Source of the DNA: Incurvaria masculella
Taxonomy: Eukaryota; Arthropoda; Insecta; Lepidoptera; Incurvariidae
DNA: 64,000 nucleotides
Assembly (NCBI GenBank): GCA_946894095.1
Contig: OX335665.1
Location: 7,078,001 to 7,142,000, forward strand
Direction of reading: 5' to 3'
Both the position numbers and the translations under genes were made by a program. This document shows positions 1 through 62,241 of this stretch, one piece after another. The notes below the pieces were generated by a model. That model did no database searches and was not told the DNA's origin. It worked only from the letters and a program-made list of their open reading frames with translations. How positions within the stretch are numbered: position 1 is the first letter of the stretch; each line of letters begins with the position of its first letter.

Positions 1-45
1 CTTATTTATTATCTTTTTTCTATCATTACTTATAAAAAACTTATA

Positions 46-141
46 TCGAACTCGGACAGAGAAAGACAGTGGTGCATGTCGGAATTGAACCCAGGCCTCT
101 GGTACGCTAGGCCAGTCCCCGCTACTAGGCTACGAGCCGCG
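46..141 (-). mobile_element. SINE-B fragment, tRNA-like head
   Basis: On the minus strand this is the 5' head of SINE-B. It has an A-box-like stretch (TAGCCTAGTAGC) and a B-box-like stretch (GGGTTCAATTCC), as in tRNA-derived pol III promoters. It then reads into the CTTTCTCT-rich linker shared with the copies at 44387 and 24695. The body is missing, so this is a truncated copy. Confidence 0.65.
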
Positions 142-3712: not shown

Positions 3713-4046
3713 TTTTGATGGATGGCGAATACCGAACTAACAGTTCAATTTAGCCTAACGCACCACATGGGAACTAGGTGCCATGCCAGGATTTTCCTTA
3801 TCTTGCTAGGCTGCATTGAACTGGATGGAAAACACGGACAATTTTCATTGCCGCTTCGATCAACGTTCATTCAATGCGACGGTACCAACCCGGGCGGGAA
3901 GGGGACCTACAGTTTTACGTGGAATCCGAACCACGGCCAGCCTCAAAGGTTGAATATGGTCACTTATCCAGAACCTAACCGCGCTCAAAGGTTAGCCCCA
4001 GCTTATCGAATCGTAAGGCGTCGCACACTGAGCTACCGAGGCTGAT
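3713..4046 (-). mobile_element. SINE-B, 5S-type head, near full length
   Basis: Read on the minus strand, it starts at about 4046 with CAGCCTCGGTAGCTCAGTG. It passes a diverged 5S-like segment containing GCGCGGTTAGG and GGATAAGTGACC, then GTGGTTCGGATTCCACG, then the body with the GGTTGGTACC and CCATCCAGTTCAATG landmarks. It ends at a T-run near 3711 (the A-tail on its own strand). Confidence 0.75.
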
Positions 4047-13428: not shown

Positions 13429-14964
13429 TAGTCAAAATGTGAAAAACCGTTAATTTAAACAAATATTAATGAATAATTCATAAAGACTAACAATCTATAC
13501 AAAAATATGCGTTATATTCTGACCCCAACACTACAAATCTATCTTTTTTTTTCTTACTGTTCCAAAAAGGTATAAACCAAAATCCAAAAATAAAGCTTCA
13601 GTTACTTTAAAATAAAATTGTTAAAAGAATCGCTAATCATTTTTACATGAAACTAGAGCTTATTTTTGTAATTGTTTTATGACATTAAAAACACAATAGC
13701 CTAATGTTCTCGCCACTACAGGTTTCAGTTTGTATATTCATATTAAATTTATATTTAATATTCATATTTCACGAGTCATTGCAGATGTCGCTACGAGCGA
13801 CTGTGGCAAAGAATATATACCGCGGTGCGATCTATTTTGACGATTCCTCTACGCGCAAGAAGGCTTTGCACTTTTTATATTCTGTGCATTTATTCTGTGG
13901 CTACGTGTTCGTGTTAAAAACGAACCAATAAGCGAAAGATTGGATCTATTAAAAACTTAATGGCTGTGGAAATGGAAAAATTAAACACAGCCAACAAACA
14001 CCGTTGCCTAACCCCACGTCTGTGCATTGTTAACAATTGAAATCGGTGAAAGCCCAACGCAGCGCGCGCTTCGCGCCATGGGGTCTGTGTGCCCGGCGCG
14101 CCGAATTTTAGGTTATGTGTAGCTGTCAAAATATTTCTTTTTGCTTTGCGCGCTGGCCCTTTTTGTCGGACGCGCAGACGTCAAAGCGATTCATTCGGAC
14201 GGGCAGGCAAAGCTTAATTTGACGTGTCGGTGTTGTCCGGTGTAGATGTTTATTGTTGTTGTTATGTTTTACTGATTAGCCCTGTTGCGGTGATGTTTAA
14301 ATATGTAGCCACTCAGAGTCACAACTCCGCTTTTTAACTTCGCTTTTTAGTTTTTGCGGTACGGGGTTGTGATATTTGAAAATTAGAAGAAAATGCGAGA
14401 GAAAATGATTTCTTTGTCCATTGGCCAAGGCACAATTTTGCACGCCGAGCGGGAAATAAATTAACGATATCGTATTCCAAGCCCTTACGGTTTCCTACTC
14501 CTAAAAGTTGTCAGATTTTAATAAAAAAAATATTGTACAGATTTATTTTACAGAATTACATATTTTAACAAAAACTAAATTCACTTGAGCAATCAAGATT
14601 CAACGAACATTTTTATATTATTATGTGAATGTCTGTATTTTCCCGTAATTAAAATATTCTCAAACGACAGCAAAAGAAGAAGAATGTTTAATTCCAATCT
14701 AAAAGGTAAAAATGAACAAACAGACAGGTCTCGACAATATAATGTCAATAAAATCATGCAAAAATATGAATAAACCCAAAATATGGATATGTTAGAATGC
14801 AAAATTTCAAAATCTTAGTAAAATATTTAGAGCAAAAAATAGCTATCGACCGGATATTGATTTGTTGCTCTTTTTAATAATTTTATTTTGTTGCTTTGTT
14901 TATTTTTGTTATATGAACTTAGCAAAGCACTCAAAAAAAAAAGATCACACATTGTTTTGTGTTT
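13429..14964. other. Intergenic; CpG-rich segment 14040-14330
   Basis: No gene recognised. Positions about 14040-14330 are rich in CpG and look single-copy (GCGCGCGCTTCGCGCC, CCGGCGCGCC). This is candidate regulatory DNA, but no specific factor site could be assigned. Confidence 0.35.
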
Positions 14965-15112
14965 TATGTGACTGGACATGACTGGCTAATGCACCGTTAT
15001 GATATTAGCCCAATACACCCCATTCCCGAAGTAATAGGATAGGTTGGGTTAGCTAGGACCTTCTCTTTATGAGCACGACTACATTGAACTGGTTGGAAAT
15101 CGTGGAAAATAT
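14965..15112 (-). mobile_element. SINE-B 3' fragment
   Basis: On the + strand it reads TTTTATGTGACTGGACATG, then TGATATTAGCCCAATACAC, then a diverged GGACCTTCTCTTTATGAGCA and TTGAACTGGTTGGAAA. This is the complement of the 3' half of SINE-B. Confidence 0.6.
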
Positions 15113-17282
15113 CTCACTAGTATTTTTTAATAAATTTTGCATGCACGGCTGTTGTTCTGAATTTACTTGGTTCGTATTCAGCTGGCTTTGTCCGTCCGTA
15201 TTGAGTTATTCTTAGTCTATGAATACCTACACCTAACTTAACTTGGCAAGCCGTGACGGAAAATAAACATCCTCGCTGCTAGTGTGGCCAGTCTAAAAAA
15301 AACTACCTTAATGAGAAGACCTTGTACGCATCTCAAATCCCACTGCGCCTCCCAACATTTCGCCCAAATCCCTGCAGCGCGTGGAGAATTATCGCATACA
15401 ATATTCCAAATTACGGTCAAAACATTTACGGCGTTTTTACAAGCGACCTTACAATAATTTGGACGCGCGACAATTTAGCTTCGTCGGACAATAGCTTACC
15501 TGGGAGGATGCACAATGAGAAATCAATTTGTTACGACTGTCAAAAAGGTTTTGATGGATCTGTGTCTCCTTGGAGAGTGGATTTGTAAATAGTTTGTGGG
15601 ATTTGTAACGGTGGACTCGAGGCTGTTTAGGCAAATTAAACCAAGGTTGAATGAGGATTAATTTGTGGCAAGGAGTACCTGTAACATGCCGTTAAGCTCA
15701 TTGGACAACGGTTCGTAATGTGATATAAGACCCTAGAACTTATGTGGTAAGCGTTAGTTTTGTATTATAAGTTTTCTTAAAAAGCACTTTTCTGCAAACA
15801 AGGTTATGGGAAAAACTTATCATTGAACTATCTTATAATTGAGACTAACACAGGTTGGGCGTTGCCATTCAAATTCATAAAACTTTCAAATGCGATAACT
15901 ACAAAATACGCGGTGTGAGCATTTTTTAAAAATTTAATTCAACAATGGATTATCTAGTGTGCCGCTTGAAAGCAATATTTTTTTGGCTATATACTAATTT
16001 CTGTTATAAGCGATTCTGAGAAAGTCGTAGACGAATTCTCCCAGAATCGCTCATATTTTTTAAATTAAAAATGATTTCAAACGCGAAACTAGAAGATTAA
16101 TTTGTAAATATAATAAAATTAAAATAATATGCCCTCACAGCTTATGTTGTAGGAGATATCGCGTTTTAAAGAAAATCAAAGCATTTTAAGGCTTAAATTT
16201 TTTAAGGCAAGGACCAACTTTTATTAATGTTAATCATAAAATGGTTATATGTCAAGCTTTTCTGATGTTTGCGAATAAGTGCTTATTATGAAAACCAAAA
16301 ATATAAAATGATAACTTATGGGATACGGTCGTTCTAGGGTATATGTCCCCTGTGTAGAGTAATATAATTATAATTACATTACAATATTAATATGTAATGC
16401 TATAAATATTCAAAATAAATTGTATCAATATTAATTAGGAAATTAGATTTAAAATTTCTAGTAAAACTCGTTCATTAAAACTTGGTAGAAATAGCAGCAC
16501 AGAGTTGTGACGTTTCTAAGACATGTCGCACGTTATGATGAGCGTTACGGTTTGGTTATCGTTGAGAACCCAATAAAATATATGAGGTTAAACAATTCTC
16601 TTTGGTGTAATCTAAACTAACCTACCCTATTCGTTACTATGTAGGTACTTACGTGTTAGTTTTGGAAAGGGTCGGAATCTCTAAAAGTAAAATTCAACCC
16701 GTACAATCCTTTTAAATTCATAACATCAAAACGTTTTGTTGATTTAGACCTTCAAAATCACCCCTCCCCTCGACGGTAACGAGATCCTCTTCAGAATAAC
16801 CCGTATACGCACATCCGACAGTGTATTTATGTTAATACCGCTAAAGTAAACCGTCAGAGATAGTATCGTTGCATTCCAAGCTCCTACAATTCAATACGCG
16901 AAATGCAGTGCCGAATCGCGACCGATCACATCTGGACGCATGTCCGTATAATTGCTGCAATGCTCTGCGAAAATATGTTTTTATGGAACGCTGATCAAGT
17001 GGGTATAATTCATGTGCGTAGGCTTCCGTGCGAAAACGTTACTCCGTCGGAATAGTCTGTCATGCTTTCCTCGAACATCGGGACGTTGTAAATATTATTA
17101 TTTTCATCAGCTGCAAACAGCGAGAGCCGAAAAACAAGTCGTAATGTGCGAAAGCTCATCCCATGCTTATAATAAAAAATATGTCCTTTATCTAGGTATT
17201 TTGAGGTTATGCAGGAACATCTAGGTTGTAATTTGTAATTCGTTCTTAAAATTAATCAAAAATATTTTGGTCTGAGCTTTCG
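15113..17282. other. Intergenic, no gene recognised
   Basis: Several 60-90 codon frames overlap on both strands without motifs. Positions about 15780-16330 may be a diverged inverted-ended element (AGCACTTTTCTGCAAACA near 15785 and a similar inverted stretch near 16270), and a small inverted pair AGCGATTCTG / AGAATCGCT lies at about 16010-16050. Confidence 0.35.
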
Positions 17283-19110: not shown

Positions 19111-19164
19111 TGAAATTTAAAATTGATGAAACCACCCGCGCGGGATCAACGCTAGCACCTCATA

Positions 19165-19310
19165 ATTAAGAAAGAGGACCTACAGTTTTACGTGAAATCC
19201 GAACTACGGCCAGCCAAAACCGCCAAGGGGTTATCCATCCATAACCCGACCGCTCCGAGTGTTACTTAACCTGAAGTACCTATACCCGAGACGATAGCTC
19301 ACTGGAGTCT
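19165..19310 (-). mobile_element. SINE-B 5S-type head fragment
   Basis: On the + strand it reads GAGGACCTACAGTTTTACGTG, then AATCCGAACTACGGCCAGCC, ATCCATAACCCGACCGC and a terminal AGCTCACTGGAG. This is the complement of the head and first body segment only. Confidence 0.55.
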
Positions 19311-19788: not shown

Positions 19789-20335
19789 ACAGCCGTGGTT
19801 CGGATTCCACGTTAATGCCGTGGTTCAGATTCCACGTTAATGCCGTGGTTCGGATTCCACGTTAATGCCGTGGTTCGGATTCCACGTTAATGCCGTGGTT
19901 CGGATTCCACGTTAATGCCGTGGTTAGGATTCCACGTTAATGCCGTGGTTCGGATTCCACATTAATGCCGTGGTTCGGATTCCACGTTAATGCCGTGGTT
20001 CGGATTCCACGTTAATGCCGTGGTTCGGATTCCACGTTAATGCCGTGGTTCGGATTCCACGTTAATGCCGTGGTTCGGATTCCACGTTAAACTTTAGTCC
20101 CCCTTCCTTACTTACTAGGTGGTAGGGTTAATCCCGCCCGGGTTGGTACCATCGCATTGGATGAACGATGGTCGAAGCGGCAATGAAAATTGTCCGTGTT
20201 TTCCATCCAGTTCAATGTAGCCGTGCAATATAAGGAAGGTCCTGGCATGGCACCTAGTTCCCATGTGGTGTGTTGAGCCAATACCATGACAGAACTTGTG
20301 GTATTAGCCATCCATGTCCAGTCACATAAAAAACA
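19789..20335 (+). mobile_element. SINE-B body with internal minisatellite expansion
   Basis: After the tandem array the normal SINE-B body follows (TACTAGGTGGTAGGGTTAAT, GGTTGGTACCATCGCATTGG, TTTTCCATCCAGTTCAATG, CATGTGGTGTGTTGAGCC), ending CCATCCATGTCCAGTCACAT plus an A-run at about 20329-20335. The normal 5' head is missing. Confidence 0.8.
19792..20091 (+). repeat. 25-bp minisatellite, 12 units
   Basis: The unit GCCGTGGTTCGGATTCCACG plus TTAAT is repeated 12 times in exact 25-bp register. Only a few substitutions are seen: CAGATT in unit 2, TTAGGATT in unit 6, CACATTAAT in unit 7. The unit derives from the SINE-B segment GTGGTTCGGATTCCACG. Each unit can form a CGTGG/CCACG hairpin and contains a B-box-like GGTTCGGATTCC. 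Confidence 0.95.
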
Positions 20336-24694: not shown

Positions 24695-25050
24695 AAAGCT
24701 CGTGATCTAGGGGCTAGAGGACTTGCCTTTCATGCGAGAGGTCTGGATTCCAATCCTCGCCTGGACATGCACCAATTTCTTTCTCTTTCTGAGTTGGATG
24801 AGTGAATTTCGTTGCGAATGCGAGCTGTTCCATGGTTCGGAACCCATGTAAAACAGTAGGTCCCCTTCCCTTACCCTACCAGGTTAAGCCCGCCCGGGTT
24901 GGTACCACCGCATTGGATGAAACTATGATTGAAGCGGCAATTCACAATTGTTCGTGTTTTCCATCCAGTTCAATGTAATCGTCCTCTTAAAGGGAAGGTC
25001 CTGGCATGGCGCCTAATTCCTTCGGGAGGGTGGTGTATTGGGCCATGCAT
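24695..25050 (+). mobile_element. SINE-B, tRNA-like head, near full length
   Basis: Head with GGGGCTAGAGGACTTGCC and a B-box-like GGATTCCAATCC, then the CTTTCTCTTTCTGAGTTGG linker, CCATGGTTCGGAACCCATG hairpin, and the body through GGTACCACCGCATTGGATGA to AATTCCTTCGGGAGGG. The last 60 bp and A-tail are missing or diverged. Confidence 0.8.
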
Positions 25051-26489: not shown

Positions 26490-26548
26490 CTTTAGTCAGT
26501 AAAAAAAGTTACACCTACCTCAGGTGTAACTTTTTTTACTGACTAAAG
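26490..26548. repeat. Perfect 27-bp hairpin
   Basis: Arms 26490-26516 and 26522-26548 are perfect inverted copies (left arm begins CTTTAGTCAGT and ends AAGTTACACCT) with a 5-nt loop. It lies just outside the MITE-D copy and belongs to no other recognised repeat. Confidence 0.9.
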
Positions 26549-26715
26549 TACTCTTTGTAAACAAATACCTTTACAATTCCAAATAAAAAGTTCTATATCC
26601 AAGTCTTGTCACCACTATCTGAGAATAGATTTGTCCCTATTGAAAATATCAACCACCCAAAGATGGCTTTACGTCCGAATTATTATGTTGTTAATATTTT
26701 ATTTATCTTTTTTTA

Positions 26716-27383: not shown

Positions 27384-27610
27384 CAGGACCTTCCCTTTAT
27401 GAGCACGGCTACATTGAACTGGATGAAAAACACTGACTGTTTTTCAATGCCGGTTCGACCATCTTTCATCCAATGCGATGGTACCAACCCGGGCGGGCTT
27501 ACTCAGAAATAGAAAGAAATTGGTGCATTCATGAGGCCGGGATTTGAAACAATTACCTCCGGCATTGAAGGCAAGTCCCCGCGCCCCTGACCTACAAGCC
27601 GTTCAGGAGG
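27384..27610 (-). mobile_element. SINE-B, tRNA-like head, 3' shortened
   Basis: The complement contains GCTTGTAGGTCAGGGGCGCG (A-box region) and GTTTCAAATCCCGG (B-box-like), then the body through GGTTGGTACCATCGCATTGG to GTTCAATGTAGCCGTGCTC. An internal segment between the linker and the GCCCGCCCGGG part is missing. Confidence 0.7.
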
Positions 27611-34317: not shown

Positions 34318-34668
34318 CTAGTTCAGGGGCTGGTGGACTAGCCATCCATGCCTAAGGTCTGGGTTTAATTCCTCGCGCCGACATGCACCACTTTCTTTCT
34401 CACCTGAGTTCGATATGTGCATTTCGTCACGAATGCGGCTGCTCCATGGTTACCGGAGGTCCCCTTCCCCTACTAGGTGGTAGGGTTTAAGCCCTCCCGA
34501 GTTGGTACCATCGCATTGGATGAAAATATATTGAAAGCGTCAATGAAAAATTGTCCGTGTTTTCCATCCAATTCAATGTAGCTTTGCTCATGGTCTTGGC
34601 ATGGCACCTAATTGAATTAAATGGTAATTGTGTGGTAGCCATCCATATGTCAGGTTATATAAAAAAAA
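34318..34668 (+). mobile_element. SINE-B, tRNA-like head, nearly complete
   Basis: Head with GTTCAGGGGCTGGTGGAC and B-box-like GGGTTTAATTCCTCG, linker CTTTCTTTCTCACCTGAG, body CCTACTAGGTGGTAGGG and GGTACCATCGCATTGGATGA, ending TCAGGTTATATAAAAAAAA. Confidence 0.8.
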
Positions 34669-34726: not shown

Positions 34727-34971
34727 TATGTGACTTATATGTTGCCGCTTCGACCATCGTTTATCCAATGCGATGGTACCAACCCGGGCTGGATAAACCC
34801 TACCACCTAGTAAGTAAGGAAGGGGACCTACAGTTTAACGTGGAATCCGAACCACGTCCAGCCTCTCTCAACGGTCGAATGGTCACCCATCCAAGACCAG
34901 ACCGGACCCAGCGTTGCTTAACTTCGGAGAGCGATCGCCGAAGTGTCGCGCCACTGGGCCATTGAGGCTGA
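34727..34971 (-). mobile_element. SINE-B, 5S rRNA-like head, internally deleted
   Basis: The complement starts GTCAGCCTCAATGGCCCAGT, then CGAAGTTAAGCAACGCTGGG (34911-34926 region; 5S box A-like), GGTCTGGTCTT (intermediate-element region) and GGATGGGTGACC (34881-34892; 5S box C-like). The distance from AAGTTAAG to GGATGGG is 32 nt, the same as in animal 5S rRNA. The body follows to GGTTGGTACCATCGC and then jumps to the CACATAAAA tail. Confidence 0.85.
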
Positions 34972-35380
34972 CAATGATGCTTACGTGTGAGACGTTCCAT
35001 CTCTCTCTAACTCACAGTAGTGGTGCTTGCGTTGACTTCTCACTCCTACTTCGTGTTGTAAGCGCAGCGCTCGTTCTATGTATGTGGTGCGAACCATCGT
35101 ATTTCGCCTCACCTCCCTCCGGAGTTCCGTAGGGCAGAGCGTCCATTACTCACAGATAAGGGCGGATATCCCACGCACCTCCATTAGCTCGGTCGTACAG
35201 CGCCAGCCGCCCTTTGTTGGCAGAGAGCACCTGGCGGTTCCCACAGCGGAGTACCCGGCGGAGATACTCTGGGATTGGGCGTGAGGATGTGCCATAGTAT
35301 GATTTCTTTTCCGAATCGCGTAAGCGACTGAAGCGTGAGTCCGCTAATAGATAACTCCACTTTCGGGCGTTAAGAACTAT
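34972..35380. other. Unique-looking GC-richer segment, origin unknown
   Basis: Frames are open on both strands (35078-35284 + and 35150-35389 -) in GC-richer DNA; no domain is recognised. The minus frame contains PEYLRRVLRCGNRQVLSANK. It may be a transposon remnant. Positions 35340-35370 match one end of foldback T. Confidence 0.35.
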
Positions 35381-35732: not shown

Positions 35733-36045
35733 TTAAGGTGGGCCTTCCCACTCAACTCCCCATACAAACGTGGAAATAAGATCATGCGCATATTTCTTAT
35801 CAGAGATCCAGAATTGTACTTAAAACAGCTTTATTTGATCGAAATACATAGATGTCTGATGACCGTCGGAATTGTGAAATAGTGTTCGGTTTCTAAGTTA
35901 TAAGGTCCGAAAGTTCGATTTTTTCGTGCGTTTTATACCGTAAGTTTGGACGTGGATTACTCAACGATGAAATAATAACATCTTAAAAAGGTTAGTCATC
36001 AGACCTAGCTTGTTTCATGAAGATTCATGTCATTAGACATCTAGT
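35733..36045 (+). mobile_element. MITE-D left half
   Basis: Starts TTAAGGTGGGCCTTCCCACT and is colinear to about 36045, where it stops at the T-run marking the tail of the neighbouring SINE-B. Confidence 0.75.
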
Positions 36046-36047
36046 TT

Positions 36048-36440
36048 TTTTTTATGCGACCTGACATGGATGGCTAATACCACACAACTACCGTTATGAT
36101 ATTAGACCAATACACCACATTCCCGAAGGAATTAGGTGCCATGCCAGGACCTTCCCTTTATGAGCACGGCTACATTGAACTGGATGGAAAACACGGAAAA
36201 TTTTTCATTGCCGCTTCAACCATATTTTCATCCAATGCGATGGTACCAACCCGGGCGGGCTTAAACCCTACCACCTAGTAAGTATGGAAGGGTACCTACA
36301 GTTTTACGTGGAATCCGAACCACGTTCAACCTTATCGGCTGAAAGTGGTCACCCATCCGGAACCCAACCGCGCACGGAGGTGCTTCACCCAGCTTATCGA
36401 ATCGCAAGGCGCGCGCCACCGGGCTACCGTGACTGCCGCA
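36048..36440 (-). mobile_element. SINE-B, 5S-type head, full length
   Basis: The complement starts CGGCAGTCACGGTAGCCCGG, passes GCGCGGTTGGGTTCC and GGATGGGTGACC, then CGTGGTTCGGATTCCACG, and the entire body to CATCCATGTCAGGTCGCAT plus an A-run. One of the most complete copies here. Confidence 0.85.
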
Positions 36441-36612
36441 GGATCTACAGCTTTAGATGGATTCCGAACCATGGAGCAGCACGTATTTGTGACTAATTGG
36501 ACTTACATGGAGGAAAAAGTGGTGCATAAACGGGGCGGGAATCGATCCCATGACCTGTCGCATGAGAAGTAAGGCCCCGTACCCTGGTCTAAGAGCCTGT
36601 CATTACGAAAAG
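36441..36612 (-). mobile_element. SINE-B tRNA-like head fragment
   Basis: The complement has GACCAGGGTACGGGGCC (A-box side), GACAGGTCATGGGATCGATT and CCCGCC (B box GGGATCGATTCCC), and CCATGGTTCGGAATCCATC. It sits directly upstream, in its own sense, of the 5S-headed copy. Confidence 0.65.
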
Positions 36613-42726: not shown

Positions 42727-43216
42727 TAACTGGAAATGGATGGCTAATACCGCACTTACCGTCAGATATTACCCTAACGCATCACATGGGAACTAGGTGC
42801 CACGCCAGGACCTTCCTTATATTGCTCGGCTTCATTGAACTGGATGGAAAACATGGACAATTTTCATTGCCGCCTCGACCATCTTTCATTCAATGCTATG
42901 GTAACACCCACGTGGTTATAACCCTACTAGTTTTACGAATCTAAGGCTGGAGTTCACAATCTCTGGTTGGTATTATATTTATGCTTTTTAGATCGCGAAA
43001 GATAGATATTTCAGGCGAAAAATAAGGACGGATATTCTATATTATAATTGTCACTTATATAGATTATGCTCTTCACGTTAAGTACTTCAGTTTAAGGTAC
43101 GTAGATCCGAACCACGGCCAGACTTTACGAACGGTCACATATCTAGAAACTGATCGCGCCCGGTGTTGCTTAACTTCAAGATAAAATACGTGGCGTCGCG
43201 CTACTGGACTACCGAG
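42727..43216 (-). mobile_element. SINE-B, 5S-type head, interrupted
   Basis: The 3' half is at 42727-42935. The head is at about 43095-43216, where the complement reads GAAGTTAAGCAACACCGGGC and GCGATCAGTTTCTAGATATG then TGACC, a close match to the 5S rRNA internal promoter. About 160 bp of unrelated AT-rich DNA separates them. Confidence 0.75.
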
Positions 43217-44149
43217 GTTGAGATGCTTTTGAATATGCTAAAAAAAACCAACTCTCTTACATTTTATAGTTCTCTACAGTGTAATCCAAAGAGAGCACTC
43301 GCTTGTGTAAACAAAATAAACTAACACACACGACAGCGCAGCTAACAAGACTAGCCTCCAACGCCCCGCCTGTCGCCGTGTCCGCTTGACAGCTCGCGTT
43401 CCCGCCTAAATAGCTGTCAATCGCGCCGCCATTGTTGTAAGCTGTGTTGGGCCCGTGTTGACGGGCCGTGTTTTTGGCGCTTTGATTGTGAGAACATCCT
43501 ATATTTGTTTTGGCTTGTTGTAATGCAGAGTTCTCGCTGGGAATAATTGAATAGTAAAAAAAAAGTTTTGATGAGGAAAGGACGAAAGGTTCGTTATTTC
43601 ACAAAGTTCTTTTTTGGAACTATGTTTCTCAACGCGGATGAGGGCCGGACGAAAAATTGTGTCCTCGACACTTTTGCTCTCAAACAGACAGTGACACCTA
43701 CACGTTTTACCTCGACGAAAGTAGGTACCAGAGCTGCAGAAATTGTTAGATATTTTAGAATTTTGTAACACTATCTGTGGCCGGGCCTCGTCTGTGTGGC
43801 CATGCAGATTTTAAGATCCCCTTGAATTTATATGGAATTTTAATAACATTGGAATCTTGGTAAGTACTAGAGCGGCAGAAATGTTTTTTTTTCCTGTGGC
43901 CCCTGTCTTGAAATCAAGACAATTAGCCAGTTTCTAGTTTCTGTTATTTGTTTCTCTTCGTTTTATTCCCATTAATATTCAGCGCATTTTAAAATGTTCG
44001 TGCATGTTTAACATTTTTGTAAAACTGTGATTTGTGGCTGGGCCCTATCTGTGCTAGTCAGTGACTTAGAAATAAATCATTATACATTAGAAACGAAATC
44101 TATAAAGGAAATTCGTTACTGCCGGGTGTCCCACAACGCCTTTCGTATT
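43217..44149. other. Intergenic; CpG-rich patch 43320-43460
   Basis: No gene recognised. Overlapping frames on both strands at 43499-43771 lack motifs. The patch 43320-43460 (CCGCCTGTCGCCGTGTCCGC, CGCGCCGCCATTG) is single-copy in appearance. Confidence 0.4.
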
Positions 44150-44846
44150 TTTTAGGGTTCCGTACCCTAAGGGTGCCAAACGGAACCCTATTACTAAGTC
44201 TCCGTTGTCCGTCCGTCCGTCCGTCTGTTGCAGGCCCGTATCTCATATGGACCGTAATAGGTAGACAGCTGAAATTTTCATAGGGTGTGTATTTCTGTTG
44301 CCGCTATTACGATAAAAATGATTAAAACTTTAATTACCCCCTTTTGACAGATTTGACCCAAAGAAACGTCATATCTTGTATGTTCTAGGCTCGTAGCCTA
44401 GTGGCGCGGGGACTGGCCTAGCGTACCAGAGACCCGGGTTCAATACCAACTTGCACCACTGTCTTTCTCTTTCAGAGTTCGATAAGTGCATTTCGTCACG
44501 AATGCGAGCTGCTCCATGGTTCGGAATCCATGTAAAACTGTAGGTCCCCTTCCCCTACTAGGTGGTAGGGTTTAAGCCCGCCCGGGTTGGTACCATCGCA
44601 TTGGATGAAAAGATGGTCGAAGCGGCAATGAAAAATTGTCCGTGTTTTCCATCCAGTTCAATGTAGCCGTGCTCATAAAGGGAAGGTCCTGGCATGGCAC
44701 CTAATTCCTTCGGGAATATGGTGTATTGGGCTAATATCATAACGGTAGTTGTGTGGTATTAGCCATCCATGTCAGGTCGCATAAAAAAAAAAAAAAAAAA
44801 TGTACGGAAACCTTTGTGTGCGAGTTCGACTCGCACTTGACCGGTT
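44150..44846 (-). repeat. Rep-A split by a SINE-B insertion
   Basis: The first part (44150-44386) runs from TTTAGGGTTCCGTACCC to ATATCTTGTA. The element resumes at TGTACGGAAACCTTTGTG and ends GTGCGAGTTCGACTCGCAC and CCGG at about 44846. A short repeated TGTA flanks the insertion. Confidence 0.85.
44387..44798 (+). mobile_element. SINE-B, tRNA-like head, full length, A-tail
   Basis: Starts GGCTCGTAGCCTAGTGGCGC (A box), B box CCGGGTTCAATACCAAC, linker TCTTTCTCTTTCAGAG, hairpin CCATGGTTCGGAATCCATG, the entire body and CATGTCAGGTCGCAT, then an uninterrupted A17 run. The clean tail suggests a young insertion. It encodes no protein; movement would depend on a LINE in trans. Confidence 0.92.
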
Positions 44847-48780: not shown

Positions 48781-49595
48781 CGGGACCTCTCTCTCTTTCT
48801 AAGGCGACGCTGACGATGCGCGAGCGAGATGAGGCGAGTCGCTCGCTCGCGGAGTTCAATAAAAAGCTTTATAACCGGTGCCCGCCCACAACGTTTGGTG
48901 AGGGAGAAAAAAATAGTTGTTTGTTTTGCGAAGGCGGGGCTCTCCCTCTGTGCCCCGGGCCCCGGTCGGGGCGCCCGTCAGTCGCTCGCCAGCCGTCACA
49001 GAGTGCGCAGCGTGCCGACGTCGAGTTTAAAAGATTTGTGACAGCTGACGTTGACAAATCTGAAGGAGCGAGTGCCATTGAACTCGAAGAGGCCGGAAGT
49101 GACGACTCGAAACAGAACTGACAGTAAAAAGAAGTGAAAAACAAAATAAATAAATAGAAATCTCATTGAATATTTAAATTGACAAGTGTTTCGAAATCAA
49201 ACAAAGCTGAGGACTCAATAACATAGACAAATAAGCCGGAATTAAGAAATTATGCTAATTCATGCGACGTGTGAGAGGATATTGTGTTCAGATTGATAAA
49301 TATTAATGACTTCAAGAGTGTCACTGTCATTTGACATTTAAATCGACAACTTAAATCAATGACCATTCAAAATCGTGTCTACAAAACAAGGTACAATTGA
49401 ATTATGCATTGACGAGTGTACGGACTTTTGTGAACACACATTCAACGTTTGATGTTTTGACATTCCGTTCCGCTATATTAAGATTTCTTAACAGCGGTTC
49501 CGCGCCGCGGGCGGTCGCAAATCTACCATGACGGGATCCAACAAAGCGCTGTGACGCGAAAGTGCGTTGTAAAAGGTGTTTTGACAGACAAGAGA
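48781..49595 (+). promoter_or_regulatory. en: Putative promoter and 5' leader of engrailed
   Basis: A CpG-rich block beginning with CTCTCTCTCTTT (48788-48799, GAGA-factor-like) and GCGAGCGAGATGAGGCG, with GCTTTATAACC at 48866 and an arthropod initiator-like TCAGTC at 48979 (48978-48983: TCAGTC with the A at 48980). No downstream promoter element fits and the TATA-like motif is about 110 bp away, so the exact start is uncertain. An open frame of 101 codons at 48816-49121 has no known motif. The leader carries a short upstream ORF at 49528-49554. Confidence 0.4.
49528..49554 (+). other. Upstream ORF of 8 codons in the leader
   Basis: ATG at 49528 (context CTACCATGA) followed by seven codons and TGA at 49552-49554, giving MTGSNKAL. 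It ends 41 nt before the main start codon and is in a different frame. Such an upstream ORF could reduce translation of the main frame. Whether it is in the transcript depends on the true start site. Confidence 0.45.
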
Positions 49596-50364
49596 ATGGC
49601 GTTCGAGGACCGCTGCAGCCCGAGCCAGGCGAGCAGCCCCGGACCGGTCGCCGGCAGGGTGCCTCTGCCGCACCCCGAAACACCGCCGTCCAGCTACCAA
49701 CCGCCAAGTCAGTATACCTGTACAACGATCAACCAGAGATTCGATCGGTCTCCGACGATGACTGTCGTGAAAGTCCAGCCGAATTCGCCGCCCCCGAGCC
49801 CTATGGACGTGTCGCAGGAAGACAGCAGCGTATACCAAAACTATTACCAGAACGAGCGACCGGAGTCACCGGATATAAAGCCCGTCATTCCCCCAGCCCA
49901 AATCGACCTGGGGATTAATTTCTCGATAAGCAACATCCTCCATCCCGAGTTCGGCTTGAACGCGATCCGAAAGACGACCAACAAGATCGAGGGGCCGAAG
50001 CCCGTCGGGCCGAACCACAGCATTCTGTACAAACCTTACGACCTGTCAAAAGCGAAACCGGCCCCAAAGGCCGGGTACAGCTTCGACTACAAGGCGAAAG
50101 TCGACGAGCCTCGACTGCCGCCGCTGGGCGGATTGCGGCAGACGATCTCGCAAATCGGCCTCCAGAGGGAGGTGGACGCGCCGGTGAAGGGCGCGGATGT
50201 GACGCCCCAGACCAGGCCAGACTCGGCGAACTCGATGGTCTCGTCGACGTCCAGCGGCGCACCGTCGACGTGTAGCGGCGCGGAGAGCAACGGGCAAGCC
50301 GGCAACGGAACCATGTGGCCGGCGTGGGTGTTCTGCACCAGATACAGCGATCGGCCTAGTTCAG
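49596..50364 (+). CDS. en: Engrailed-class homeobox protein, first coding exon (partial)
   Basis: This exon encodes the N-terminal 256 residues plus one base of codon 257 of an Engrailed-family transcription factor, a nuclear repressor that sets posterior compartment identity in segments and wings. The start is ATG 49596 (A at -3, G at +4), giving [10 protein letters not shown]; the frame stays open to a GTG 45 nt upstream, but no earlier in-frame ATG exists. Visible parts: Pro/Ser-rich stretch at 25-70 ([12 protein letters not shown] at 58-69), EH1 [12 protein letters not shown] at 109-120 (Groucho binding in the family), basic and Pro-rich region 125-190, Ser-rich tract 210-232, and EH2 [17 protein letters not shown] at 241-257 (Extradenticle contact). 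EH2 has Phe at 246 where many relatives have Tyr. Homeodomain, EH3 and EH5 are not encoded here. Length before the intron favours engrailed over invected, but invected cannot be excluded from this exon alone. Confidence 0.93.
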
Positions 50365-50370
50365 GTTAGT
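50365..50370 (+). other. Splice donor of engrailed intron 1
   Basis: TCAG|GTTAGT splits the Gly codon after RPSS in phase 1, the position where engrailed-family genes have their first intron, between EH2 and EH3. Reading through would give a stop at once (GGT TAG). Confidence 0.85.
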
Positions 50371-51812: not shown

Positions 51813-52296
51813 TCACCTATAGTTGGACCCGATAGATGCCGCTACTGTTGAAGTCTGTAGCAAGACGTCTATCCTGCCGGGTCCGCTAGTAATCTTAGAT
51901 TTTGATTAATGTTTGTTATAATTCTTCGTTGGTACGTCCGATTGAGGTCCGATTTCACGTTTGTTTTTTACGTCAAAATTGAGATGGTTTTCCATGTGAT
52001 TGATAAAGAGTTTGATCAACAATTCCTCTGCTAGATACATACCTACAAAAGTGCAGAGTATTTTGTATGGTTAGACATTGAGCGTGGCTGTAGGCCTAAA
52101 TTACTCTAGTGAGCCTCTCCGTCAAATAGCTAGATGGCACATCAATGGGCGTGCCACGTGTGGCTGAAAACATCATTGAGATCGCCCGAGGTTGACAATA
52201 GTCAACTGCTAGAGCGGATCGTAGATAAGTGGCGCTGGGACCCGCCTTGCATGCCAGATGTCATGGCTTGAAATCCAGCCTCGTTCATGCACTTTG
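51813..52296. other. Intronic, no feature recognised
   Basis: Weak inverted motif GGACCCGATAG (51826) / GCCGGGTCC (51880). A SINE-B tRNA-head-like scrap at about 52200-52290 (GGCGCTGGGACCCGCC, TGGCTTGAAATCCAGCC) precedes the next element. Confidence 0.4.
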
Positions 52297-52670
52297 TCAG
52301 CCTCGGTTGCCCAGTGGTTAGGTTAAGCTGGTTAAGTACCTCTGAGCGGGGTTGGGATCTGGGTGGGTGACCATTTTCTACCGTTGGGGCTGGCCGTGGT
52401 TCGGATTCCACGTAAAACTGTACTTACTTACTAGGTGGTAGGGTTAATCCCGACCGTCGTTCATTCAATGTGATCGTTGGTACGATCATATTGAATGAAC
52501 GACGGTCGAAGCAGCAATGAAAATTGACAGTATTTTCCATACAGTTCTTTGTAGCCGAGCAATGTAAGACACATGCTGGGATGGCACATAATTACCATGT
52601 GGTTTGTAAGGTTAATATCTGACGTTCAGTTTGGTCTTAGCCATCCATGTCCAGTTACATAAAAAAATCA
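52297..52670 (+). mobile_element. SINE-B, 5S-type head, full length
   Basis: Starts CAGCCTCGGTTGCCCAGTGG, then CTCTGAGCGGGGTTGGGATC and GGGTGGGTGACC, GGCCGTGGTTCGGATTCCAC, and the body to CCATGTCCAGTTACAT with an A7 tail. A local inverted duplication (GTCGTTCATTCAATGTGATC / its complement) at about 52459-52507 is unique to this copy. Confidence 0.82.
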
Positions 52671-52714
52671 CCAAATCCTTCTATTTCGAATCCCTCTATT
52701 TCAAATCCTTCTAT

Positions 52715-52864
52715 TTCCGAGTTGGTCAGGAGAATTTCGTCACGAATTCGAGCTGGCCCATGGTTCGGAATCCAGTCGGAAGTAGAGTTTAGCCCGCCCG
52801 GTTGGTACCATCGCATTGGATGAAAATATGTTCGAAAGGGCAATGATAAAATGTCCGTGTTGTT
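52715..52864 (+). mobile_element. SINE-B body fragment
   Basis: CGAGTTGGTCAGGAG, CCATGGTTCGGAATCCAG, GGTACCATCGCATTGGATGA, ending AATGTCCGTGTT. Truncated at both ends. Confidence 0.65.
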
Positions 52865-54534: not shown

Positions 54535-55321
54535 ATATGGCCGCATTACCACCATGCCCTAATAGGCTCTAACCGAACCCTTTTTCTCTGCCTTTGCCTG
54601 CTCACGATTATGTTATGTGCGTACAAAGAAATACGTATGTCCAGCCCGAGGCAACGAAACGTGAATACGATTTGAATGTTAAAACTTATTTATAAACGAA
54701 GTAAGTGCCCATGTAGATTCTAGGCGATAATTGAACGCGTTTCGCGACAAATATACGTGTAATGTGGAAGCCAACGCAAAGGTTATAGTGGTTAAGCATT
54801 TATGAAACCTTGTTGGGTTCGAGTGAAGGGTACACATCGGGCGACGAAGCAGCGATCTTCCAAGCGACGTCGTAATTACTTTTCGCGATATCACTTCACT
54901 ATGCATAATATATAACTTCACTATGACATATTAAAATATAATTATTTAAAAAAACAGACCCTAGCCTAGCCTAGATATTGTTTAGCTAATATAAAAAATG
55001 CGTCCGTAAATCAAGCTATATATATAGCTACATTATAAAGAAATATACTAAGCCAAACATCAGAAAAAAAAATAGTACAAATGATACAAAGATAAAACTA
55101 ACAAATAAGACCTATATTTTTATTGTTCTAAACACAGAACACATACAAATACACACAAGTAACAGATAAAAATGAAAAAAAAAAAACCATGACAATGACA
55201 ATTTTAATTAACCCTAACAAATAGCAATCATTAATAAAAATGTTCTTATAAATAAGACTAATATCAAATAAGACTTGTTATAAGATAACAAGAAAATTTA
55301 TATGTTGCTTATAAACGATCA
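54535..55321. other. Intronic, no gene recognised
   Basis: Frames at 54469-54675 (+) and 54679-54921 (-) lack motifs. 54940-55310 is very AT-rich. Confidence 0.4.
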
Positions 55322-56041
55322 GCCTCGTTACACAGTGTGCGACGCCTTGCGTTTCGGTAAGCTGGGGAAGCACCTCTGAGCGCGGTTAGGTTCATGATGG
55401 GTGACCATTTTCAACCGTTGAGGCTGACCGTGGTTCGGTGCCTTACTTACTAGGTGGTAGGATTAATCCCGCCCGGGTTGGTATCATCGTATTGAATGAA
55501 GCGGCAATCAAAATTGTCCGGGTTTTCCATCCAGTTCAATGTAGCCGAGCAATATAACCATGGTGATGGTTTCCGAAATAATCTTGACTCACTGAATCAC
55601 AATAGGCACAAAACTAATCTTGGTAAAAATTACCCTCTTGCAAGAATTTGTTAGTACTTTCAATAAGACATATTATTCTATAATTTCTCTAAAATTCTTT
55701 GATAATATCTGCTTTGTGATTGTTTGGTTATCATTTTAATGTAATTATTTTTATATTCACTCATATTCTTATTTTTACTTTTACGTTGTGGTTATATGAT
55801 TTTGTTTTTTGGTTATAATTGTTTTATTTTTTTCGTAAGTTAGCAATTCATTTGTACATGTTGTGTTTGTCCTTAATAGTAGATAGTTTTGGTGTGTTTT
55901 TTCTTTCTTTTAATATCTGTAAATGTAAGAAACGATTCTATGTGGACTAACCTTTAAATAAAAAATAAAAAAATGTGATATGTTAGGCTAATATCGGACG
56001 GTCATTTCGGTATAAGCCATCCATGTCCAGTTAAATAAAAA
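55322..56041 (+). mobile_element. SINE-B, 5S-type head, interrupted
   Basis: Head: CAGCCTCGTTACACAGTGTG, CTCTGAGCGCGGTTAGGTTC, GATGGGTGACC. Body to GCCGAGCAATATA at 55561. The element resumes at 55976 with TTAGGCTAATATCGG and ends CCATGTCCAGTTAAATAAAA. About 30 bp of normal body are missing at the junction. Confidence 0.75.
55562..55975. repeat. Unclassified insertion in SINE-B, A-rich end
   Basis: About 410 bp of AT-rich DNA ending TTTAAATAAAAAATAAAAAAA, which looks like a retroposon-type 3' end. No coding motif. Confidence 0.45.
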
Positions 56042-56378
56042 AAATCTCGAAACGTCGGAGAATGTCTCTCCCTGCCGCGTGAAAAGCCGTAAATTGGTCA
56101 CGTCAAAACCAAACAGTTTTGCTTTTGAGTTTCTTAAACTTTTCTACGGAGATATCGCTCGTTCGTCGCTAGTCTCGCCGCTACCCGGTGTAGCCATTGT
56201 GTGGCACAGCAATTATGAAGTATTTATACCACAATGTGTGCCTACTTACAAGTCCAGGCGTGAGGGAACATCATACATGTTATTAATGATATCTTCAAGT
56301 ATTTTATTCAATTATGATGCGCTCTTGATGATGGTCTAACAGTTGGCCCATTTGGTAGTTCTTCTGTACCGCCCATTT

Positions 56379-56964: not shown

Positions 56965-57300
56965 GTGGCTCGGTGCGCGGGGCCTTGCTTCTCTTGCGAG
57001 AGGTCATGGCTTTTCACCCGGTCATGCACCACTTTCTTTCTCTTTCCGAGTTGCATTTCGACACGACCATCGTTCGGAAACCATGGATTGGTGTTTTTTT
57101 ATGTAACTGGATATGAATGGGCACACCTTCCGTCGTGATATTAGCCCAACGCACCACGCAACCGAACGAATTAGATGCCATCTTGCATTCGATGCGATGG
57201 TACCAACTCGGGACGCTTTAATCATGACTTCCGGACCATGGAACACCTCGCATTCGTTACGAAACGCACTTATCCAACTCAGAAAGAGAAAGAAAGTGGC
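56965..57300. mobile_element. Two SINE-B pieces in opposite orientations
   Basis: 56965-57085 (+): tRNA-like head with GGTGCGCGGGGCCTTGC and CCACTTTCTTTCTCTTTCC. 57093-57300 (-): TTTTTATGTAACTGGATATG through GATGCGATGGTACCAACTCG to the AGAAAGAGAAAGAAAGTGG linker. The two parts form an imperfect head-to-head pair. Confidence 0.65.
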
Positions 57301-61795: not shown

Positions 61796-62241
61796 AATTT
61801 CTAATGCAATTATGATTCATGTTCATCACTGACTAATAAACAGACATCCCTTACTAATAAACCTAGATCATCGTCTGATTAGTAATACAATGTTTTGTCG
61901 CTTTCTCTCCAATTCGAAATTGAATGTCAATGCAAAGGACAAACATTGTATATCTATTCAGATGATGAACTGGGTTTATTTGTAACAGGGTTTAAACAAT
62001 CTCCTCATACCACACTGTTTACCCAAATGTTGTGTAACTATAGCCGGAACTGCAAAAATCAATGCCTAGGCCCGTCTCGGGGACATGAAAAGATTTTCCC
62101 GCTCACGCCTCGGGGGTGGTAAGTGATTTTGCCCCATTCGTATGCGACCCGCGGATACCTTACGCCCCCATCGAAGCCTGCAGTTGCCAGGAGTCGAATG
62201 GCATCCGTGTATATGTACATACATAGGTTCAGCATATTCGT
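61796..62241. other. Intronic, no gene supported
   Basis: A 75-codon + frame (61895-62122) has no motif. The GC-richer portion 62060-62200 (CTCACGCCTCGGGGGTGGT) may be a transposon remnant. Confidence 0.35.

Follow-up and report, generated by a model that had tools for sequence, protein, structure and literature searches.

SINEs that carry 5S- and tRNA-derived heads on a common body have already been published for moths. In Helicoverpa armigera, the tRNA-headed HaSE1 and the 5S-headed HaSE3 have consensus 3' regions that are 94% identical, and Wang and co-workers proposed that HaSE3 arose by a template switch from HaSE1 RNA to 5S rRNA (PMC3272025). The tRNA-like 5' end of ObSE2 is followed by a 122-bp central region in common with the 5S-headed PxSE4 (PMC8010984), and tRNA and 5S heads have been described as separately fused to bipartite RTE sequences (PMC7245038, PMC13174262). 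The SINE family of Incurvaria masculella analyzed here resembles the HaSE1/HaSE3 pair in that 5S- and tRNA-headed SINEs with a common body and 3' tail were found in one genome. According to the sections available for the Helicoverpa elements, HaSE1 and HaSE3 end like the RTE element HaRTE1.1, whose own end consists of TGA repeats, whereas the present tail is A-rich after CATAAA; likewise, HaSE3 seemed much scarcer than HaSE1, whereas in the present family exact-marker copies are more numerous for the 5S-headed lineage. The available text of PMC3272025 describes neither reciprocal nor multiple mosaics. PxSE4 and ObSE2 belong to different moth species, with no within-genome recombinants in the portion of their description at hand, whereas the present case concerns one genome. 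The DeuSINEs share one central domain. AmnSINE1, SINE3, OS-SINE1 and LmeSINE1 of this one group bear 5S or tRNA heads, and the springhare has the 5S-headed Ped-1 and the tRNA-headed Ped-2 with the same partner LINE, BovB (PMC3747384). Both head types thus occur in one genome in the springhare as well, the relation of the bodies not being given in the excerpted account; the DeuSINEs are spread over many vertebrates and their exchange is inferred between families, whereas ours lies within one genome. To our knowledge, no young mosaics are known for the head exchange of DeuSINEs.

We analyzed a window, that is, the whole stretch of 64,000 nucleotides (C25:7078001-7142000), in a genome of 552 Mb in 31 contigs. 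The window contains one SINE family with two head types, tRNA-like (T) and 5S-like (S), on a homologous body of about 270 nt (table 1). Its members have the traits of SINEs: they are about 400 nt long, A-tailed, dispersed, present in thousands of exact-marker copies and non-coding by appearance. SINE-derived sequence makes up about 5.9% of 264 kb (the window and 20 stretches of 10 kb), and the copies are sometimes nested. Reading of the copies bore out the tRNA-type heads that the original prediction had placed at 24695, 34318 and 44387 (all on the plus strand) and the 5S-type heads at 34727 (minus), 36048 (minus) and 52297 (plus), the two minus-strand copies having been cited by their 3' ends. 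The claim that all six run from the hairpin to the A-tail held only in part, since the copies at 34318, 34727 and 24695 each miss parts. The 44387 copy belongs to a young family, with 40 genomic copies at 99-100% identity, itself included, among the 40 scored of 1820 candidates. The 34727 copy kept the proximal S body and an A-tail and lost most of the distal body, and in the 36048 copy an S hairpin (36324-36307) is followed by a T-lineage body and a T tail. Scans of viral_contigs and genome_contigs with the body pattern gave 0 matches.

Table 1. SINE copies and related features of the window (T, tRNA-like head type; S, 5S-like head type)
Feature	Positions	Strand	Remarks
T-type head, 3' truncated	44..138	-	
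Old S-type SINE	3717..4044	-	
Old, degraded S-type SINE, head and proximal body	19122..19310	-	
12 tandem copies of 25-bp S-type hairpin unit	19792..20090	+	leads into S-type body, to 20331
T-type SINE, 3' truncated	24697..25046	+	start cited as 24695; lacks 3' end and A-tail
T-type SINE, head-body deletion	27384..27600	-	
T-type SINE	34318..34668	+	most of hairpin and part of distal body deleted
Young S-type SINE (34727 copy)	34727..34972	-	5S-like head 34972-34856; hairpin CGTGG..CCACG
5S-head/T-body SINE (36048 copy)	36045..36430	-	old-type 5S head
Older tRNA-head and hairpin fragment	36431..36600	-	directly 5' of 36048 copy, head to tail
Old S-type SINE	42733..43221	-	other sequence inserted, about 43094-42928
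Full-length T-type SINE (44387 copy)	44387..44798	+	T-lineage body, A-tail; from young family
44387 copy, tRNA-like head	44387-44513	+	
44387 copy, hairpin	44515-44532	+	CATGG..CCATG
Interrupted T-type copy, 5' part (head)	52214..52290	+	host of 52297 copy
Old S-type SINE (52297 copy)	52297..52667	+	nested in T-type copy
Interrupted T-type copy, 3' part	52706..52861	+	host of 52297 copy
Old S-type SINE, 5' part	55319..55558	+	S-type 3' end at 55972-56044
Old T-type SINE fragment	57122..57299	-	best matches a mix of T and S body queries

Nested and neighboring copies were also seen elsewhere in the genome: a young T copy lies inside an S-type copy at L011 (C10:11427505), the young T copy at C4:23273939 is flanked on either side by T-like sequence in the match list, and at L048:8981-9188 an old S-like hairpin/body fragment immediately precedes a young S copy. 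Two long inverted repeats of the window (26498-26600 and 61862-61974), with weak matches to unrelated Rfam hairpin families, are possibly small inverted-repeat transposons. The only listed open reading frame of the window of at least 150 aa is an engrailed-like coding stretch with an EH1-like motif (49551-50369, plus strand). Among the 120 of 263 matches listed for it, the named best ones are lepidopteran (52-67% identity), followed by beetles (30-34%); a set of the lepidopteran matches are mostly 65-86% identical to each other, with Eumeta at 55-63%. These identities mark the genome as that of a lepidopteran-like insect with no close relative among the species compared.

We examined the origin of the two heads by comparison with known pol III genes. 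The 34727 head aligned to positions 1 to 120 of the Rfam 5S_rRNA model (RF00001) with 18.4 bits and an E value of 0.11, below the gathering score of 38; the 43220 head, the sole other 5S head searched alone, gave no Rfam 5S match, and at E 10 the whole window likewise had none. When head strings read by hand were aligned to a moth-like 5S reference, 77 of 110 aligned bases were identical in the young S head and 76 of 106 in the old one, and 0 of 300 shuffles were as good in either case. Judged from these alignments, the likeness of the S head to 5S is beyond chance. For the T head, the 44387 head gave no tRNA match in Rfam, and ARAGORN at a lowered threshold returned a defective fold only; A and B boxes, read by eye against their consensus, suggest that this head is tRNA-derived. 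The first 36 nt of the S consensus agreed with the T 5' end at 25 of 29 paired bases (18 of 5000 shuffles as good) and with the 5S 5' end at 21 of 31 (352 of 5000); these figures come from a computed consensus and are preferred to the hand-read version, than which they are weaker. An earlier comparison of the S-head 5' end with T, based on a window-only consensus, was weaker still (55 of 2000 shuffles as good). A generic tRNA would likewise match an A box, and ARAGORN found no tRNA gene for comparison on 20 loci. The S head may itself be a tRNA/5S chimera; one young head nonetheless aligns to the whole 5S model. Such heads are in general established drivers of pol III transcription, and both heads here probably serve as pol III promoters. 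With one extra base, the hairpin GGTTCGGAATCC/GGTTCGGATTCC is similar to a pol III B box; a role for this B-box-like hairpin is speculative. The hairpin array at 19792-20090 consists of 12 units with a 97% match, and all 6 genome matches to adjacent exact unit pairs lie within it; the tRNA-Ile calls that ARAGORN placed on this array were read as false.

The original prediction regarded all copies as sharing one body. The bodies are indeed homologous across head types (blastn E 4e-37 for 44387 vs 34727 and 8e-128 for 44387 vs 36048), but a single uniform body was rejected: both divergence and hairpin type (CATGG..CCATG in T, CGTGG..CCACG in S) separate two lineages. The comparison of body divergence by head type, suggested with the original prediction, gave greater differences between than within types in the window, namely 17.1% within T (13 pairs), 18.0% within S (31) and 22.7% between (45). 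We extended the analysis to a 264-kb sample composed of the window and twenty 10-kb stretches at round coordinates, which yielded 84 chains. Simple head-plus-body copies numbered 12 S-S and 11 T-T; the remaining chains were body only (49), head only (7) or complex (5), the last being 52297 with its host copy, 36048, 57122 (a T head with mixed best matches), L048 (a young S copy beside an old S fragment) and L032 (a T body without a head and with an S-like tail). The sole S head on a T body in this sample was that of the 36048 copy. In a tree built from 25 body rows (14 S, 10 T and 36048; bodies under 90 bp left out), head type changed once, with support of 91/99, 0 of 500 shuffles had as few changes, and the 36048 body grouped with T. 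Over segments of at least 100 bp, divergence from the nearest sample consensus spanned 3.8-29.4% for the 35 S segments and 5.4-30.4% for the 25 T segments; thus, both lineages hold old and young copies. The young S heads of the sample are nearly identical. These results indicated that T and S are two long-lived lineages in which head and body are linked.

To follow this linkage genome-wide, we used two exact markers, the type of hairpin and, 118-148 nt downstream, a marker in the middle of the body (a span of about 136 nt), which catch only copies unmutated in about 30 letters and therefore favor young ones. Concordant copies numbered 7,345 S-S and 4,853 T-T, so that the 5S-headed lineage outnumbers T by exact markers, whereas 18 S-T and 27 T-S copies were discordant (45 of 12,243 in all); the backwards-pattern control gave 0 matches for each of the four marker pairs. 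We fetched seven of the 18 S-T and seven of the 27 T-S loci, chosen by eye and not at random; 36048 and L054, from an earlier search, are two more of the 18 S-T loci, and the other 9 S-T and 20 T-S loci are known from 80 listed letters each. Nine of the 14 fetched copies, from eight loci, were clean one-switch mosaics, and both directions were represented. L057-L061 have a young 5S head and an S proximal body followed by T sequence (L060 misses the first head bases), and L063-L066 have a tRNA head and a T proximal body followed by an S 3' part and an S tail (the head is whole in L063, L065 and L066 and short by a few bases in L064). At 35-36 markers, all nine fit one switch with 0 misfits and no switch with 11-15 misfits, 3 of 39 marker columns that vary within a lineage having been dropped after inspection of the strings. 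The breaks fall in the intervals 63-95, 118-138 and 138-160 (T-body positions counted from 44513). L057 and L058 are near-identical neighbors; because their flanks are shared, we count them as one event in a duplicated locus. As to the remaining fetched copies, L056 is the sole clean two-switch form, a short T patch lying within an S body (S-T-S), L067-L069 lack a complete T head and fit one switch with 1-2 misfits, and L062 is not explained by any simple model. Taken together, these results support repeated and reciprocal head exchange between the S and T lineages. The promoter swapping between SINE lineages that the original prediction had put forward therefore finds support in clean-break S-T and T-S mosaics, mainly outside the window; among the six copies that it named, head and body are of different lineages in 36048 alone and linked in the other five.

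Other copies are less easily assigned. The minus-strand copy at 14955-15120 is a headless body with T-type mid-body markers and S-like letters at two tail markers, and represents either a mosaic or an ancestral tail. Some older T copies (15116, 57122) show S-like tail letters, so that single tail markers may be ancestral. Two forms of the 5' end, GAGCGGCTCG.. and ..AGGCTCG.., are common among twenty young T copies (L009-L028). The longest exact matches between the flanks of these copies, examined as candidate target-site duplications and without a random control, are 3-8 nt in 19 copies and 10 nt in one; the two forms and the short flank matches suggest variable 5' ends, either of the RNA or of integration.

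The 36048 copy belongs to an older group. With the full composite (36600-36048) as query, whole coverage was obtained at its own locus alone among 40 scored of 6,236 candidates, a search in which an old, diverged relative of the pair could be missed; six other loci matched from the 5S head (its start or within it) onward, and the rest of the 40 matched the body only. Given one full match among the 40 scored, we rejected a tandem two-headed SINE family. Between the T-head fragment (36600-36431) and the sample T consensus, 26 of 154 aligned bases differ, whereas the 36048 body beyond the break departs from young T at 5 of 224; for this reason we regard the fragment as an older neighbor outside the element. 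An 8-nt flank match around the composite (TAATGACA), equalled by 20 of 5000 random flank pairs, carries no weight because it does not abut the A-tail. The six loci carry an old-type 5S head and an S hairpin followed by T features, namely a CTCATAAAGGG-type stretch, a six-base insert and a GTCAGG-type tail, with variation in single copies. In a pair of trees restricted to body rows of at least 140 bp and heads of at least about 86 bp, the bodies of these loci and of 36048 were placed within the T clade (100/99), the corresponding heads grouped with old S heads (95/94), and six T rows formed a subclade (93/88) nested among the 5S-head/T-body copies. When the distal body was analyzed alone with three more T rows, T-headed and 5S-headed rows were mixed, and a single clade was rejected for T (AU p 0.019) and for the 5S-headed rows (0.028), which points to more than one exchange; with the full body, these tests do not reject (p 0.226 and 0.371). 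Six of the 28 rows, those without an anchor, entered the clade tests uncut, and columns filled in less than 30% of rows were dropped. The older copies fit one switch with 1-3 misfits and their break points disagree; in three of them the best break lies right at the hairpin end (T-body positions 18-21), and overall the junction, which the original prediction had left to be located, falls at the hairpin or up to about 75 nt after it. The older group (36048 and the six loci) stems either from an earlier event of this kind or from a stage of the original replacement of the head.

We consider it fairly probable that this is one SINE family with two lineages, in which an occasional switch of template by the reverse transcriptase gives rise to head-swapped mosaics. 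Target-primed reverse transcription begins at the RNA 3' end. The enzyme would copy the RNA of one lineage from its 3' end, jump to the RNA of the other where both bodies are identical, and continue to the 5' end of this second RNA, leaving a one-switch mosaic with a foreign head; the expected products would be 5S-head/T-tail and tRNA-head/S-tail mosaics. Most copies keep their own head. Mosaics whose 3' end belongs to one lineage and whose 5' end belongs to the other match this prediction. Template switching, which has also been discussed for LINE-1 chimeras (PMC13174262, in the part available), thus appears to be the likeliest mechanism, with gene conversion as its main rival. Matches to the SINE tail revealed no partner LINE in 264 kb: 11 of 50 tail matches had no SINE body upstream, and the 1.2 kb preceding them held open reading frames of at most 155 codons.

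Gene conversion or ectopic recombination at the DNA level between inserted SINE copies would also make mosaics. The S-T-S copy L056 fits it at least as well, SINE copies are dense and sometimes nested, and the flank duplications by which head and tail could be assigned to a single insertion are weak; nine of the 14 copies (eight loci), however, switch exactly once, with each end wholly of one lineage, tail included, and we therefore judge this route unlikely. Mis-joining of such similar repeats during assembly, for which the near-identical neighbors L057 and L058 might be cited, would yield collapsed or chimeric repeats. That explanation is highly improbable, because 31 contigs for 552 Mb suggest a long-read assembly and the older 5S-head/T-body copies are mostly several percent diverged, unlike mis-joined young copies. 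Even less credit can be given to the refuting alternative named with the original prediction, that the head pairs are merely adjacent or nested independent insertions: it holds for 52297, which lies in a T copy, and, as we read it, for the T-head fragment before 36048, but not for head-body junctions generally. S-S and T-T marker pairs are each repeated in thousands of copies, the same head junction is found across the sampled copies, and the 5S-head/T-body junction occurs at six more loci; we rejected adjacent insertion as a general explanation on the grounds of this recurrence.

Two further readings concern the original split of the lineages. The older 5S-head/T-body copies could be, instead of recombinants, intermediates of a single later replacement of head and hairpin on a T body that at first carried one head, a replacement that left both kinds behind, as the nesting of the six T rows in one tree and the three breaks at the hairpin end would suggest. 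Yet the subclade dissolves with three more T rows, the distal body rejects one clade for either head type, and the young mosaics are left unaccounted for, so that we regard a single replacement as rather improbable. It is somewhat easier to imagine, though still doubtful, that the same LINE-derived body captured two heads independently, in which case the original S/T split was not a swap. Such a route was described by Kojima for RTE-derived SINEs, and the head 5' ends give no more than weak evidence of a common origin; the later mosaics, whose breaks lie within the body, cannot be explained by independent capture. For these, template switching between the RNAs of the two lineages remains our preferred explanation.

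Earlier papers, in the parts that deal with these families, infer head exchange from family consensus sequences, and in the open-licence literature we found no account of mosaics formed in both directions between 5S- and tRNA-headed SINEs of one genome. Young two-way mosaics with mapped breaks and a genome-wide denominator make the rate, direction and break-point preference of such exchange measurable. A retroposed 5S promoter has been expected to be silent or weak, as cited in the available portions of PMC3272025 and PMC8010984; the S majority among exact-marker copies (7,345 vs 4,853) is at odds with this expectation. We proposed, with the balance of probability lying on neither side, that the two lineages form a recombining population in which both RNAs may contribute to a copy, one the 3' half and the other the promoter head. 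If so, the promoter class, 5S-type or tRNA-type, would be an exchangeable module, and this genome would offer a natural experiment in which template switching by an insect LINE can be assayed, with 45 discordant copies among 12,243 over about 136 nt.
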